Of a DNA stretch of 64,000 nucleotides, positions 3,194 to 58,084 are shown in pieces (positions within the stretch are counted from its first letter, which is position 1; each line of letters begins with the position of its first letter). The stretch lies in the IMG/VR virus record IMGVR_UViG_3300023202_000383, positions 124,001-188,000 of that record; one strand, given 5' to 3'. Below the pieces are notes generated by a model. The model had not been told where the DNA came from. It did not search any database and saw only the letters and a list, made by a program, of their open reading frames with translations. The translations under genes and the position numbers were made by a program. This DNA comes from a virus.

Positions 3194-3238
3194 TTTTCGC
3201 CTGGTTAAGCTTGATGCACTGATGCATAAGGAAGACCA

Positions 3239-3517
3239 GTGGTGGAAAACACAGAACGAGTAAGATGGTACCACGTAGTTTCTAGTTTATCGGGTGGCGA
3301 CGCTGTATTGATCGTTGGTGTGTTTGTGCTTATAAGTGCCTTGATGGGTTTTGAATATGAGACTCCGATCGATGCTGTTTGGAATCTAGCGTTTTGTGCA
3401 GTTGGTTGGCAGATTGGTGGTCTTTTTAAGTGGAGAATGGGGACCCACCCGCATTTCAAATATAATTCAGATGGCAACCTATCTGGATCCGAGGAAGAAG
3501 AAGACGAAGAAGCGTAA
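3239..3517 (+). CDS. small membrane protein, two predicted TM helices
   Basis: 92 residues from GTG 3239. Hydrophobic segments at about residues 20-38 (GDAVLIVGVFVLISALMG) and 45-62 (AVWNLAFCAVGWQIGGLF) should span the membrane. The tail is very acidic (EEEEDEEA). The acidic tail is read from the same DNA that encodes the basic start of the next gene in another frame. Confidence 0.6.
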   Translation: MVENTERVRWYHVVSSLSGGDAVLIVGVFVLISALMGFEYETPIDAVWNLAFCAVGWQIGGLFKWRMGTHPHFKYNSDGNLSGSEEEEDEEA

Positions 3518-8643: not shown

Positions 8644-8649
8644 TTTCTG

Positions 8650-8799
8650 CCCATTCTGCTGCCAAGGTCCTTACGCTCCCCCAAGTGAATTAGCCCCGCT
8701 CGGCCTCGAACCGAGTTTTCCGGATTTAAAGCCCGGCGTGCTAACCAGGTACACTACGGGGCCACTTCCCGGACCAAGGATGACGTCCAGCAGGATGGG
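8650..8799. repeat. imperfect inverted repeat flanking the minus-strand tRNA
   Basis: 8650-8661 pairs with 8788-8799 over 12 positions (one G-T), and GGTCC 8666-8670 with GGACC 8771-8775. They bracket the only minus-strand tRNA of the window. Confidence 0.5.
8691..8763 (-). tRNA. tRNA with anticodon TTA (predicted ochre suppressor)
   Basis: A full cloverleaf on the minus strand: acceptor GGCCCCG/CGGGGCT, D-stem GTGT/GCAC, anticodon stem CCGGG/TCCGG with loop CTTTAAA (C32, T33, TTA, A37, A38), 4-nt variable loop, T-stem CTCGG/CCGAG, loop TTCGAGG, discriminator A. All usual conserved positions (T8, A9, A14, GG in the D-loop, A21, T33, TTC, A58) are present. Anticodon UUA pairs with UAA. The acceptor stem is the same as that of tRNA-Arg(ACG) at 10344. 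Its amino acid is unknown. Confidence 0.75.
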
Positions 8800-8804
8800 T
8801 ATTT

Positions 8805-8892
8805 GGAGCGTCAAGCAGATTGGCGACTGCACTGTTTTCGAACAGCAGCGAGCCTGAACAAGGCCTTGGGGGTTCGATTCCCTCACGCTCCG
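8805..8892 (+). tRNA. tRNA-Ser(CGA), irregular anticodon arm
   Basis: Class II: acceptor GGAGCGT/ACGCTCC, D-stem GCAG/CTGC, variable arm GCC/GGC, T-loop TTCGATT, discriminator G, TT follows. The anticodon arm CTGTTTTCGAACAG folds only as 5 bp with a 4-nt loop or 3 bp with an 8-nt loop, so it seems to have lost bases and may be non-functional. Confidence 0.7.
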
Positions 8893-8894
8893 TT

Positions 8895-9337: not shown

Positions 9338-9392
9338 GGGAGTGTAGCTCAGCTGGCAGAGTTCTCGGCTTTTAACCGAGCGTTTTGGGTTG
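9338..9392 (+). pseudogene. 5' part of a degenerate tRNA-Lys(TTT)
   Basis: GGGAGTG acceptor strand, D-arm GCTC/GAGT and anticodon arm CTCGG-CTTTTAA-CCGAG are good, but the T-arm region (GGGTTGCAAGC) is damaged and no CACTCCC acceptor partner follows. An intact tRNA-Lys(TTT) starts at 9416. Confidence 0.65.
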
Positions 9393-9415
9393 CAAGCATT
9401 AACGGTGATGCACCT

Positions 9416-15156: not shown

Positions 15157-15230
15157 GGCCCTGTATCCCAACTGGCAGAGGAATGACGCTTAAAACGTCA
15201 GAGTTGGCGGTTCGAATCCGCCCAGGGCTA
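15157..15230 (+). tRNA. tRNA-Leu(TAA), short variable loop
   Basis: Acceptor GGCCCTG/CAGGGCT, anticodon arm TGACG-CTTAAAA-CGTCA, variable loop GAGTT (5 nt), T-arm GGCGG/CCGCC, discriminator A, TT follows. A Leu anticodon on a class I body is unusual. Confidence 0.88.
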
Positions 15231-19994: not shown

Positions 19995-20067
19995 CCGCAT
20001 TTAGCTCAATTTGGTAGAGCGCTCGCTTTGGGGCGAGAGGTTGCAAGTTCAAATCTTGCAATGCGGA
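19995..20067 (+). tRNA. tRNA-Pro(TGG), unusual anticodon loop
   Basis: Acceptor CCGCATT/AATGCGG, D-arm GCTC/GAGC, T-arm GCAAG/CTTGC, discriminator A, TT follows. The anticodon arm CTCG-CTTTGGGG-CGAG has an 8-nt loop with 4 bp, or a 6-nt loop with 5 bp, not the normal 7. Confidence 0.82.
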
Positions 20068-21021: not shown

Positions 21022-21794
21022 ATGGCCAGGAAACCAAGAATACCGGTTAAGAACAGGGGGCGGCTTTGACTCCGCTAAGAATGGTGGAGTAAGGGGGTGT
21101 CTTTGAAAATGCCACTGAAATTATCGTCGAAATCCAATTTGGCGAAGGTGGCGATGATAGCAAGTTGTTTGTGGACGACCTGTTATCTGCTTACTTGAAA
21201 TATGCCAAGTCGCTCGGTTTTAAGTCCGATCTGATATTCTCAGATAACGGGCATGCTACAATTAAAATCATTGGTAACAATGTTTGGAAGGCTTTTAGAT
21301 ATGAGCCTGGTAAACATTGTGTTCAGCGTATCCCACCAACAGAGAGCAAGGGTAGAGCGCAGACTTCTATTGTTTCTGTGGCTGTGTTGCCGATACCGCC
21401 CAAGATAGGCACTAAGCTTAAATCGAGTGATCTCAAAATTGAGAGGGTTAACCTCGGTGGAAAGGGCGGACAGCACCAGAATAAGACTCTATCTGGTTGC
21501 AGAATGACTCATATTCCAACTGGCCTTAAAGCAACCATCAATGGTAGAGATTACCATAGCAATGAGCGGGAAGCTAAGAGGATACTGGCTGCTAGAGTTC
21601 AGGAGCTTAAACAATCTAAAGCCAATGCTAATTACTCCGCAAAAAGAGTTGAGCAACTTGGGGGCGGAGGCAGGAGCGATAAGGTGAGAACTTACAACTT
21701 CATTAAATCTAGGGTTGTAGACCATAATCTTGGCACTAAGACCAGGAACATCAAGCAAGTGATGAAGGGCAACTTTGAGCTGTTGTTGAAATAA
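21022..21794 (+). CDS. peptide chain release factor (RF1-type body) with two prfB-like +1 frameshift sites
   Basis: GGAGG precedes ATG 21022. The frame reads 15 codons to AGG-GGG-CGG-CTT-TGA (21055-21069); +1 shift gives 12 codons to AGG-GGG-TGT-CTT-TGA (21092-21106); a second +1 shift enters the main frame at GAA 21105. Both sites copy the E. coli prfB signal (AGGGGG, 3 nt, CTTTGA). The joined product is about 256 residues, lacking RF domain 1. Seen: IQFGEGGDDSKLFVDDLL, the stop-recognition region RIPPTESKGRAQTS (PPT, compare PAT of RF1), the catalytic GGQ in LGGKGGQHQNKT, and RSDKVRTYNF as in RF1. It should hydrolyse peptidyl-tRNA at stop codons; the PxT motif predicts UAA/UAG. Confidence 0.88.
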
Positions 21795-30023: not shown

Positions 30024-30108
30024 GCACGGTTGGCCGAGTGGTTGAAGGCGTTGGCCTGCAAAGCCAATGGGCGGAAGCTCCACGTGGGTTCGAATCCCTC
30101 ACCGTGCT
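30024..30108 (+). tRNA. tRNA-Cys(GCA) with a long variable arm
   Basis: Acceptor GCACGGT/ACCGTGC, D-arm of Ser/Leu style (GCC-loop-GGC), anticodon arm TTGGC-CTGCAAA-GCCAA, long variable arm GGGCGGAAGCTC, T-loop TTCGAAT, discriminator T, TT follows. GCA plus U73 are Cys identity elements, but the body is class II. Confidence 0.88.
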
Positions 30109-34339: not shown

Positions 34340-37150
34340 TTAAAGGTTGATCTGGCATGTTCCACCAGCACATGCTGCTTCACCAGACAGGTCAGTGTTG
34401 TCTTCTTCCTCGTGGAAGTCTTCCCAATTTATTTTTGTATAATTTGAGATTAGCTCTTTCCACTTTGCTTCATCTGCGTCGGTGGATATTTCTTCAAATG
34501 GAGCGTTTTCATACTCTTTATCACCAGTAAATGCCAGCATTGATACGCCCGAGAAGTACTTCTTATTTTTCCACAAGAATTCTTTAACATCATCCCATTC
34601 ATCTTCCTTGACGCTTATCGTGTTAGACACATTGTGCGTGACCCCTGGAGATGAATCAGGCTTGGCGGTTCCGGGCGATACCCAATTCTTTTGAGTAGAC
34701 ATGACACGCTCAAGGAATTCAACAGCTGTGAAGTCCGATCTTATAAGTGCCCCATCTGGTGCCTTGACTGGGAACATTAGAAGATCTTTGTTCTTATTGA
34801 CAGTAATGCACATATGCGGATTATGTTTTTTAAATTCCTTGTATGCTTCGCATTGCGGATTTACTCTTATTCTTCTGAAATATCTTCTAGCGTGGTGGCA
34901 ATGATGGCCAGCACCTACGCCTCCAAGCACTAATGATGCGGTGCCGCTTGGTTTGACGCATGTTACTCTAGCTGCCGACCTTATTCCAATTTTGTTTGCG
35001 ATTTCAATATTGGTTTCGACAGCTATTTGAGCTGCTGTCTTCTGAACCTCCGGGCTTAGAGCAATATCTGGATTGTCCATTATACCAGTGAGAGATACTC
35101 CTAGAAGTGCCTCTCTAGTGCATATTGCTTCGCTGACCCATCCAAGATAACCAAAATCTGTATATCCTGCTTGAGCTGTGCCAAGTATAGCTGCTGCTTT
35201 TACTCTGTCATAAAACTCTTCTGTTGTGTCTGCAGTTGCACAATTTACCTCAGATAAATTACATTGCTGCCAGCCCCAGTAGGTTGAGCCGACTTTCAAT
35301 TTTGGGGTCTTTTTGCCATTCTCTTTGGCCCATTTTTCTGTCCATACTTTTATCTGTGGCGTGATTTCGAATTTTGGGTTCAACCCGATTTCGACGCATT
35401 GTCCTATTTGAATAGTATTGATGAATACTTCATTATTTGATGGTTCGTTTAGGCAGTACACCTGCTTCTTGCCAATATATTCAATAGCTTTAACTTTGGT
35501 ATAGTCGTAAGATCCCTGGGGATAAGCTAGCGGGATTCTATCGCCAATTTTTAAGTCTTTGCATTGTTTCCTGATTTTAGTCCTACCAGCAACAGCAGTA
35601 GCAGTAGATCCAGTACCGTTTTTGCGCCAGTTTCTCTTATCTTCAAGGACTATCCATTGATGATTGGAAGTAGTCTCTATTTGGTCACCATTCTGCAATG
35701 TTATTCTATATACCTTAGCAGATTTAGATGTCCTAAAAACATTCGATGCAATTGATCTACCGTGACTGTTGACTATATTCTGGACGCCATAATCATCGAG
35801 AGTCTTATGGCTAGCATATTCTTGGCGTCCTCCGTTTTCCCACAATTCTTCGATGGTCTTGTATCCATCGCTTGTCATTAGCTTCATGTTGCCAGTAAAG
35901 CACGGATTAGCCCCTGTATCTTCGTCATTAGTAAAATAAAATCCAGGCTCGCCCCATTGTCTTGTCGATTTGAATATTCTGTCGTATTGTCTCTTCTTTG
36001 TCTCTTTACGATGCAAAACAACAGAGTTGTTAGACCTAGCCCTCCATGGATGAGTCTCGCCCCATTTGCCAGTCTTGGCATTCATCATTTCGCCATCGTC
36101 AATAGAAAACAGGCATATCATTGCCGCTTCTCTGATGCCGCCAGCGTAAACAGCGTCTGCCAATGAGCACATGATGTCATAACATTCTATTGGTCTTAGG
36201 TGTCTTCCTTGTGCTAAGTCTAGAATGCTTCTGGATCTATCTAATGCCTGCTTAAGCGGTAAGTGTCCAGGTGCCTTCCCGCCGCTTGTTTTAAGAGGAG
36301 ATCCCTTAGGTCTTATCTTGCCGTATGAGAACTCTACGTATGTTCCCGTATGCATATAGGATCTGATCAATTCGTGTGCTGCATCTGCCCAGCCTTCGAT
36401 TGTGTCTGGTATAGCAAAATGTTTTACATTGTCACTATCGATTCTTTTAAGCTCTGGCAACTGATCTACATGCTGGAATTGAACAGAGAACCCAACTCCA
36501 GTTCCACTCAACAGCAACCAGAAAGCTTCTGCAAAAAATTTTGGTCTGTTGCAAACAGAGAATGAGCAGTTGTAGCCTTTAGCGTGATTCAATTCTTGAG
36601 CAGGTCCTCCGAATTGCATAGATCTCATTGATCCAAGCACCTGCTTGTCCCGTACCTTATCCATTACCCAATCTAATTCGCCCTTAATTTGCGGGTATCG
36701 GTCAGCGTGCATTTTGTGCACTCTGTCTACACACTCTTCATAGGTTTCTCGCCTTTTCAGATCTTCTCTGTAGCGAGAATATCGCATTCTTACTACGAGA
36801 TCTTCTATTATTGTTGGGTCTGGGTCTAGACGAGTCTTTCTTAGATCGTCTTTGTGTCTACTATATAATATGTATTCTTCTGCAACACCGTGAAATTGAT
36901 AATCCATCAGTTTACGTTTGACGATTTGTTGAATGTCGTCGACGCCTATTCGATTGTCGCTGTCTAATCTGACAAATGCTTCATCTTCTATCGCTTTTAA
37001 AAGATGATCGAATTTCCCATTAATGTCTGTGCTAGCATCTTTTGCTGCTTTTTGGATCGCTATCTTTATTTTGTCTGGATTCCAGTCTACTGATGTTTTC
37101 CCATCTCTTTTGATAACTTTAGCGGACGCCTTCGTAAGTGGTGACATCAT
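34340..37150 (-). CDS. nrdJ: class II (B12-dependent) ribonucleotide reductase with an intein
   Basis: 936 residues including an intein. N-terminal ATP-cone-like VIKRDGKTSVDWNPDKI; catalytic core with SMRSMQFGGPAQ, GYNCSFSVCN, LLLSGTGVGFSVQ and the intein-split active-site segment NP-CVEIGL; C-terminal VKPSGTASLVLGGVG and the redox tail ACAGGTCQ. It matches the monomeric RTPR/NrdJ type, which makes dNTPs with adenosylcobalamin and needs no oxygen. After removal of 168 intein residues the enzyme is 768 residues, normal for the family. It supplies precursors for phage DNA. Confidence 0.93.
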   Translation of the reverse strand: MMSPLTKASAKVIKRDGKTSVDWNPDKIKIAIQKAAKDASTDINGKFDHLLKAIEDEAFVRLDSDNRIGVDDIQQIVKRKLMDYQFHGVAEEYILYSRHKDDLRKTRLDPDPTIIEDLVVRMRYSRYREDLKRRETYEECVDRVHKMHADRYPQIKGELDWVMDKVRDKQVLGSMRSMQFGGPAQELNHAKGYNCSFSVCNRPKFFAEAFWLLLSGTGVGFSVQFQHVDQLPELKRIDSDNVKHFAIPDTIEGWADAAHELIRSYMHTGTYVEFSYGKIRPKGSPLKTSGGKAPGHLPLKQALDRSRSILDLAQGRHLRPIECYDIMCSLADAVYAGGIREAAMICLFSIDDGEMMNAKTGKWGETHPWRARSNNSVVLHRKETKKRQYDRIFKSTRQWGEPGFYFTNDEDTGANPCFTGNMKLMTSDGYKTIEELWENGGRQEYASHKTLDDYGVQNIVNSHGRSIASNVFRTSKSAKVYRITLQNGDQIETTSNHQWIVLEDKRNWRKNGTGSTATAVAGRTKIRKQCKDLKIGDRIPLAYPQGSYDYTKVKAIEYIGKKQVYCLNEPSNNEVFINTIQIGQCVEIGLNPKFEITPQIKVWTEKWAKENGKKTPKLKVGSTYWGWQQCNLSEVNCATADTTEEFYDRVKAAAILGTAQAGYTDFGYLGWVSEAICTREALLGVSLTGIMDNPDIALSPEVQKTAAQIAVETNIEIANKIGIRSAARVTCVKPSGTASLVLGGVGAGHHCHHARRYFRRIRVNPQCEAYKEFKKHNPHMCITVNKNKDLLMFPVKAPDGALIRSDFTAVEFLERVMSTQKNWVSPGTAKPDSSPGVTHNVSNTISVKEDEWDDVKEFLWKNKKYFSGVSMLAFTGDKEYENAPFEEISTDADEAKWKELISNYTKINWEDFHEEEDNTDLSGEAACAGGTCQINL
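35399..35902 (-). mobile_element. mini-intein in NrdJ (residues 417-584)
   Basis: Begins CFTGNMKLMTSDGYKTIEEL (block A, Cys1), block B TTSNHQW with the TxxH motif, and ends VYCLNEPSNNEVFINTIQ, then IGQ, followed by extein Cys585. No endonuclease domain. The C-terminal residues are Gly-Gln instead of His-Asn. Inserted exactly before the active-site Cys, so the enzyme is inactive until splicing. Confidence 0.85.
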
Positions 37151-45823: not shown

Positions 45824-47014
45824 ATGCCATTGGTCAAAGTACTACCAACTGCTAATTATAAAGAACTTCCAAAATTAAAGCAGTTCACAAAAGGTTCTGT
45901 TGGCATCGACCTATATTGCGCATCCGATGCCACAATCATGCCCAGGCAAAAAATAGATATTCCATGTGCTATAAAATTAGAATTGCCAAAAGGGTATTAT
46001 GCTAGGATTACCGGCAGATCTTCATCATTCATGCTTGGTATAGATATTAGAGAAGGCATAATCGACCAAGACTACAGGGGCGAGATTTATATTGGTGCCT
46101 ATAATTTTAGCGATGAGACGGTCACGATTAGCAGAGGTGACCGGCTAGCTCAAATGCTAATATCAAAATACGAGGATATAAGCATTGAGTACGTTGAATC
46201 AATAAATGATACTCAGAGGGGAGACGGGGGTTTTGGCAGCACAGATGTTACTGTTGGGGTAGAACATGCCAATTTTATCAATAAAGAATTCTTAGATGAA
46301 TTCTACATAAAAAAAGGGCTGTCTGCTGCCGAAATCGCCAAGAGATTCAACGTTGGCAAAACAACAGTACTGAGGAAAATGACAGAAAATGGTGTTGCCG
46401 CCTTAAATTCGTGGGAAAGACATCCACCAGAATTAGACGAATTACAGAGCATGCTAATTGCCGGGTCTATAATCGGCGATTTATCCATCAAGCATAGCGA
46501 GGCTTGGACGCATGCCAGGTGTGACTTCGCACACGGGCCTAATCAAATAGACTACTTAAGATATAAAAAAGACATAATGGCGAAATTCGTTACAATGGAC
46601 ATAAATTCTAAATATAACAAAGAATTCGATTCCGTCACTTTTTATTTCTCGACCATCACACATCCAATATTCACGCGACTGAGGGAGGAATATTATCCTA
46701 ATGGTGTGAAAGTGGTGACCGATAAGCTTTTGAATAGATTGAATCCTTTTTCACTATCTGTTTGGTATATGGACGATGGGTCTCTGCACATTAGTAATAG
46801 CAATAGTAGGTGGATATCTATGCATGTGGAGGGGTTTGACCCCGACTCACAAGTTAGAATCTTGTCGTGGCTTAATGATAACAGGTATGAGGCTAAATTC
46901 AGAAACGACGGGAAAGGCCATAGGTTTATCGTTCTCAATTCGATTGGTACAAGAAGGCTTATAGACACAGTAGAACCACACATCATCCCATGCATGCAAT
47001 ACAAAATTAGGTAA
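45824..47014 (+). CDS. dut: dUTPase fused to a LAGLIDADG homing endonuclease, 396 aa
   Basis: Residues 1-145 form a full dUTPase: motif 1 GSVGIDLYCA, 2 TGRSSSFML, 3 GIIDQDYRGEIYIG, 4 ISRGDRLAQMLI, 5 RGDGGFGSTDV. It converts dUTP to dUMP. Immediately after motif 5 follows an HTH (LSAAEIAKRFNVGKTTVLRK) and a LAGLIDADG-type endonuclease with LIAGSIIGDLSI and LSVWYMDDGSLHI. The fusion sits between the N- and C-terminal remnants of another dUTPase. Confidence 0.88.
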   Translation: MPLVKVLPTANYKELPKLKQFTKGSVGIDLYCASDATIMPRQKIDIPCAIKLELPKGYYARITGRSSSFMLGIDIREGIIDQDYRGEIYIGAYNFSDETVTISRGDRLAQMLISKYEDISIEYVESINDTQRGDGGFGSTDVTVGVEHANFINKEFLDEFYIKKGLSAAEIAKRFNVGKTTVLRKMTENGVAALNSWERHPPELDELQSMLIAGSIIGDLSIKHSEAWTHARCDFAHGPNQIDYLRYKKDIMAKFVTMDINSKYNKEFDSVTFYFSTITHPIFTRLREEYYPNGVKVVTDKLLNRLNPFSLSVWYMDDGSLHISNSNSRWISMHVEGFDPDSQVRILSWLNDNRYEAKFRNDGKGHRFIVLNSIGTRRLIDTVEPHIIPCMQYKIR

Positions 47015-57103: not shown

Positions 57104-58084
57104 TTATCGCCCTCTGATATATTCTTCGAACAATTCGCAGGCGTTATCCTTGAATTGTTCGAGATCATTCTTGGTAGCAAGCCCGTTGCTCAATGCAAGA
57201 TCGAACTCGTCGTCGAGCCTGCAGCCGAATTGTATGGGATCGTCTGTGTTTAGAGTGATCCTACAACCGGCTTCAATCATTCTTTTTATAGGATGGTCCC
57301 CTATCGATTTTACGACCCCAGTGTAGAGATTGCTGTGGAGGGCCAAATCAAAGGTGATCCCCTGGTTGTTGCACATGTCAAGAATCTCTTTAGAGGCTTG
57401 GATTCCGTGTGCTATTCGATCGACGCCACTACATTTTACCACATCTTCAACGTGCTTGCAAGTATCTGGCAGCTCACCCACATGTGCACGAACGTGCTTA
57501 CCGGCTTTGCGCCAGTTTTCGATGAGTGGTTTGTAAAAGTCGATATCAAAGGCTGCCTCATCCCCAACGAGGTCCATTCCAACAAAATGACGCGCTATCT
57601 CATCATCAAAAATTATATCGGCAAATCGCTTTTGATCATCTCTAGAGGACTCGTACTTTAAAGACAATAACAGGCCGACATTTACGTTATGTCTTTTAGA
57701 CGACTCTTCGAGGTTGCGTGTTATTATCTCAGCTGCTTTATGGACCGACCAGTTGTGGTGCTTAGTAAACTTGTTTAGTGACAAGCTTATTTCAGAGAAA
57801 TCAATATTATCCTCTCTGAGATCTTTACAGACCTGGTCGACCATTATTCTTATGGCCCACTCATCCCACGTAATCTCATCCAGAATTTGGAATTTAGTTA
57901 AGAATGTCTTGAAATCATTTTTGTCGCCACGAGAGAATCTCATGGCTTTGTTTACTTCTCGAAATGATTTAGCTATATGGTATGATTTAGATTTATTTAT
58001 TATTGACCATACAGTTTCAGGGGATATAGACCCACCTAGCTAAAGGTGGCGATGAATGTCGCACCTTGGACGTTCAATCGCCAC
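57104..58084 (-). CDS. adenosine deaminase family protein interrupted by an in-frame UAG
   Basis: From residue 48 on: VGLLLSLKYESSRDDQKRFA, AHVGELPDTCKHVEDVV, RIAHGIQASKEILD and CRITLNTDDPIQFGC are the zinc- and substrate-binding motifs of adenosine deaminases. The frame extends upstream to GTG 58084 (AGGAGG 3 nt before), giving CDIHRHL, the N-terminal HxH zinc motif, then TAG at 58040-58042, then LGGSISPETVWSIIN. Without TAG and the following CTA the sequence would read HRHLGGSI as in the family. Either a recoded gene or a damaged one expressed only from ATG 57943, lacking the HxH motif. Confidence 0.75.

Follow-up and report, generated by a model that had tools for sequence, protein, structure and literature searches.

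Laboratory ochre suppressors of E. coli are mutant tRNA genes with the anticodon UUA, which reads both UAA and UAG by wobble. In phages, suppressor tRNAs are usually regarded as tools of stop codon reassignment, mostly of UAG. UAG-reassigned phages use such tRNAs (PMC10879173; PMC11210395), 99.7% of a published set of ribozyme-associated phage suppressor tRNAs were amber (PMC10879173), and none of 10,754 jumbo phages was found to be TAA-recoded (PMC13037316). Release factor autoregulation by a +1 frameshift is known for prfB but not for prfA, and TAG has not been found at the prfB shift site (PMC12421855).

The window, the 64,000-nucleotide stretch analysed here (positions 124,001 to 188,000 of IMG/VR record IMGVR_UViG_3300023202_000383), is part of a 256,507-base (256.5-kb) phage record. 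A 73-nt tRNA gene with the ochre-reading anticodon UUA and no encoded CCA is located at 8691–8763 on its minus strand. ARAGORN predicts tRNA-Stop(tta) at c[8690,8764], and the match to the Rfam tRNA family RF00005 spans exactly 8691–8763 with 55.9 bits (E = 2.4e-9; gathering score, 29 bits). The original prediction of a canonical tRNA with a UUA anticodon is thus borne out by two programs run independently. The anticodon TTA (positions 34–36; 8727–8729) is found in the 7-nt loop CTTTAAA (8725–8731), which has U33 and a purine at position 37. The acceptor stem (GGCCCCG/CGGGGCT) comprises seven pairs, the first of which is G1·U72, and is accompanied by a GTGT/GCAC D stem, a CCGGG/TCCGG anticodon stem, a CTCGG/CCGAG T stem with the loop TTCGAGG, and the discriminator base A73. 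All four stems are intact, with pairing at 21 of 21 positions when G·U is included. That all conserved positions are present, as had been claimed, is a slight overstatement, as C15 and A48 are atypical with respect to the usual purine-15/pyrimidine-48 pair and the CCA is absent. The CM score of this tRNA is mid-range for the record, whose other tRNAs score 27–74 bits.

About 35 tRNAs are found in the record, in two clusters. The UUA tRNA lies on the strand opposite to its cluster and adjoins minus-strand TylF/sulfotransferase genes. It is indeed the only minus-strand tRNA of the window, but not of the record, where all nine members of the second cluster (~195–207 kb) share that strand. The cluster of the UUA tRNA also contains a degenerate tRNA-like stretch at 9338–9404 (plus strand), whose score of 21.1 bits gives a picture of what tRNA decay looks like in this cluster; it is tRNA-Lys-like and stands just ahead of an intact tRNA-Lys(UUU), apparently as a decayed copy. 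Imperfect inverted flanks surround the UUA tRNA (8646–8800, no strand assigned; 12-nt arms at 8650–8661 and 8788–8799) and do not go beyond chance, since 18 of 300 shuffles gave an equally good duplex and this tRNA was one of 26 tested. A processing stem and an invertible switch were both rejected as roles for these flanks, because the pairing falls within that of the shuffles and similar repeats occur nearby. No ribozyme or other RNA family flanking the tRNA was detected in Rfam, and no promoter for the minus-strand gene was recognisable above chance level.

Other features were recorded alongside. The predicted tRNA-Ser(CGA) at 8804–8893 (plus strand) has a poor score of 29 bits as a normal tRNA but fits the selenocysteine tRNA model with 37.9 bits and a long D stem. 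Unexpected variable arms occur in tRNAs at 15157–15230 and 30024–30108 of the window and at 3222–3306 and 10226–10313 of L105, being short in tRNA-Leu(UAA) and long in tRNA-Cys(GCA), tRNA-Trp(CCA), and tRNA-Gln(UUG). At 19995–20067 (plus strand), ARAGORN predicts a tRNA with a six-base anticodon loop, which is possibly Pro-like. Among the protein-coding genes, a ribonucleotide reductase gene of the B12-dependent type (34340–37150, minus strand) has an intein N-terminal match and is probably intein-interrupted, a dUTPase is fused to a LAGLIDADG-type homing endonuclease match (45824–47014, plus strand), and an adenosine deaminase gene is carried at 57104–57943 (minus strand).

The amino acid that the UUA tRNA would carry is best guessed as glutamate or glutamine. 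Its nearest neighbours among 300 distinct tRNAs from this and related records are the tRNA-Glu(CUC), tRNA-Glu(UUC), and tRNA-Gln(UUG) of related phages, and a single base change separates the anticodons UUC and UUA. It contains U11-A24, U13·G22, and A46 and lacks position 47, all of which are identity elements for GluRS, and like the tRNA-Glu(CUC) of the phage itself it has G1·U72 and A73. These D-stem pairs combined with a short variable loop are found in four of 12 tRNA-Glu genes, and also in some tRNAs for Asp, Arg, Ile, His, Gly, and Lys. As the GTGT/GCAC D-arm is likewise present in Asp, Arg, Ile, His, and Gly tRNAs of the relatives, the assignment is unsure. A search with PF00749 found no GluRS or GlnRS gene in the phage's own record; one is present in the related phage G002.

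Stop codon usage was counted in 216 of the 256.5 kb of the record, which contain 219 ORFs that do not overlap and reach 100 aa or more. TAA is the commonest terminator, at the end of 95 ORFs (43%), followed by TGA (80) and TAG (44), and the shares expected from composition are 42%, 29%, and 29%, respectively. TAA is therefore used as a normal stop, in agreement with the original prediction, and the partial readthrough that had also been proposed leaves no sign in these 216 kb. TAA is not depleted, and tandem stops are not enriched after it relative to the other stops, another in-frame stop being reached no more than five codons downstream of 34% of TAA, 35% of TAG, and 35% of TGA terminators. 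The long in-frame extensions beyond TAA have the look of separate genes or of antisense runs. Those in the window run on into neighbouring genes, each with a start of its own and mostly also a Shine-Dalgarno (SD) sequence; they comprise the adenosine deaminase gene, which precedes a 656-aa ORF, a 298-aa ORF that precedes a VWA protein gene, and two others. Those outside it are adjacent genes or stretches that do not look like protein. No gene that requires UAA as a sense codon was found in the 216 kb, and the signature of a UAA-reassigned genome, in which TAA is avoided as a terminator and present inside genes, is absent from the same stretch. Recoding of UAA was rejected on stop usage, on ORF length with each stop removed in turn, and on inspection of the long TAA extensions. 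UAA is not reassigned and is a working stop in this phage. Since it is not avoided as a terminator, suppression cannot be strong, and strong constitutive suppression of UAA is unlikely.

The phage release factor mentioned in the original prediction is present and, by models and PDB matches, of the RF1 type. Its gene (21022–21794, plus strand) matches PF00472, and the NCBIfam prfA models (198 and 195 bits) outscore prfB (117 bits); the best PDB matches are RF1. The protein contains GGQ and is without domain 1, and its tripeptide region reads PPT instead of the SPF of RF2 (prfB) stop recognition. By homology, the factor probably reads UAA and UAG and would thus compete with the UUA tRNA at UAA.

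We favour, at a probability of roughly 0.55, the reading that the phage carries an intact UAA-decoding tRNA, most likely of the Glu or Gln type, which has a low-level or conditional effect while the standard code is kept. If transcribed, the tRNA is probably charged, and it would decode UAA, possibly also UAG through U34 wobble, most likely as glutamate or glutamine. Insertion would occur at a minority of UAA codons, against host RF1/RF2 and the RF1-type factor of the phage. Proteins would be extended at the C-terminus, or nonsense codons suppressed, at a low level or under certain conditions, with no new genetic code, and the effect may be weak, late in infection, or dependent on conditions.

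Searches by tRNA DNA, by flanking proteins, and by a 25-kb stretch recovered no near relatives, and viral contigs scanned with a broader UUA-arm pattern yielded no stop-reading tRNA. Distant relatives were reached through the release factor family. The 527-kb genome of G002 has both a UUA and a CUA tRNA, each imperfect, the UUA one being less canonical. One CUA tRNA is found in the 595-kb genome of W01/LR756511 and in each of G007 and G013, and two are found in each of G005 and G006. TAA, TAG, and TGA are all used as stops in the examined stretches of relatives with stop-reading tRNAs. By eye, the D-arm, anticodon arm, and acceptor of the relatives' CUA tRNAs are unlike those of the UUA tRNA, and these tRNAs therefore look like separate origins. 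Stop-reading tRNAs are present in six of the eight tRNA-rich members of the release factor family and in two of nine controls, which are large phages from the same search that carry other GGQ proteins (one-sided Fisher p = 0.044, a weak result given that the genomes are related and tRNA coverage is incomplete). The two positive controls mean that stop-reading tRNAs are not special to the release factor group. Among tRNA-rich phages that keep the standard code, a stop-reading tRNA is thus no rarity, but one with UUA is.

These counts bear on the main rival explanation, in which the UUA tRNA is a drifting by-product of tRNA duplication and mutation in a tRNA-rich genome. A change of C36 (or G36) to A would have produced the UUA anticodon, and the tRNA would be poorly expressed or tolerated, and useless. 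Such an origin would suit a tRNA with no dependent gene and no trace in stop usage, which is placed against the strand of its cluster beside the TylF/sulfotransferase genes and close to the degenerate stretch at 9338–9404, and it agrees with the stop-reading tRNAs of the two controls. Against it stand the fully intact fold and the recurrence of stop-reading tRNAs in most tRNA-rich relatives with the same release factor, and we consider a by-product possible but on balance unlikely.

More surprising than the UUA tRNA is the arrangement of the release factor gene, the reading of which requires two successive prfB-like +1 frameshifts (AGGGGGNNNCUUUGA). The gene starts at ATG 21022, downstream of an SD sequence, and its initial frame ends at TGA 21067 inside the first cassette, AGGGGGCGGCTTTGA (21055–21069, plus strand). 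A predicted +1 shift at CTT leads to the second cassette, AGGGGGTGTCTTTGA (21092–21106, plus strand), where a second +1 shift enters the release factor frame, giving a predicted full product of 15 + 12 + 229 codons. By sequence, both are prfB-type cassettes, with an SD-like run, a short spacer, CUU plus stop, and a +1 frame into the release factor. The two are the only AGGGGGNNNCTTTGA sites on either strand of the 216 kb.

Cassettes with UGA, UAG, or UAA occur in eleven relatives. The stops are UAG and UAG in L035 and L121, UAA then UGA in L033, and UAG then UGA in L123, which is a sister of L033 and nearly identical to L124; L119 and L125 have UAG and L034, L036, L126, L128, and L133 have UGA. 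L120 has neither a cassette nor an in-frame UGA. In L122 (5986) and L127 (5983), an in-frame UGA follows the release factor start with no shift cassette, and TGA is a normal stop there. PPT is found in the tripeptide region of most of the relatives' release factors; L125 and L128 differ. A literature search of limited coverage found no description of such release factor cassettes in phages. The predicted double cassette lends independent support to the earlier suggestion that this phage actively manages termination.

A functional link between the UUA tRNA and release factor control is hypothetical. It would take the form of a circuit in which the UAA-reading tRNA opposes an RF1-type factor gated by two stop-dependent +1 frameshifts, so that competition at stops sets the amounts of release factor and of readthrough products during infection. 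Other large phages would then be variants tuned to different stops, with UAG, UAA, or UGA cassettes and CUA or UUA tRNAs. This proposal is tentative, and we think it rather doubtful. In two phages, the cassettes do not contain the stop cognate to their own suppressor: the phage of the window (UUA tRNA; UGA cassettes) and LR756511 (CUA tRNA; UAA and UGA cassettes). G002 runs counter to this pattern, combining CUA and UUA tRNAs with UAG cassettes, and no weight can therefore be placed on an avoidance of suppressor-cognate stops.

Phage tRNAs with altered anticodon loops are reported to evade anticodon nucleases. The Glu-like body of the UUA tRNA would be in keeping with such a part in anti-defence, as a decoy or a replacement insensitive to nucleases that cut Glu/Lys-type anticodons; a stop anticodon is nevertheless unable to replace lost decoding, and we regard this role as improbable. 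Least probable is a true reassignment of UAA late in infection, with some late genes containing in-frame UAA, which could appeal to the suppressor tRNAs of UAG-reassigned phages (PMC10879173; PMC11210395) but is largely refuted in the 216 kb, where TAA is the commonest stop and dropping it mostly fuses neighbouring genes that have their own starts, and which would be without a counterpart among 10,754 jumbo phages (PMC13037316).

The amber suppressor tRNAs (CUA) carried by UAG-recoded phages (crAss-like and Lak phages; code 15) resemble the UUA tRNA in that they too have a stop anticodon and are encoded by large, tRNA-rich phages. The UUA tRNA differs from them in its anticodon and in its genome, which keeps all three stops and in 216 kb of which a search for coding UAA found none. 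That a genome with 43% UAA-ended genes should carry an intact ochre-reading tRNA does not fit the account of phage suppressors as reassignment tools, and conditional readthrough is directly testable. The laboratory ochre suppressors of E. coli have the same anticodon, whereas here UUA is found in a natural phage gene with a tRNA-Glu-like body and putative suppressor activity. With the +1 frameshift of prfB (RF2 autoregulation), the release factor gene shares an SD-like AGGGGG, a spacer, and CUU plus stop near its 5′-end. In contrast to prfB, the phage protein is RF1-type (PPT) and without domain 1, its gene has two tandem cassettes, and the cassettes of relatives use UAG or UAA besides UGA, whereas the prfB motif is reported to be without TAG (PMC12421855). 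An RF1-type factor controlled by tandem cassettes with UGA, UAG, and UAA would contradict the current view, which restricts this kind of control to prfB and leaves UAG out of it.
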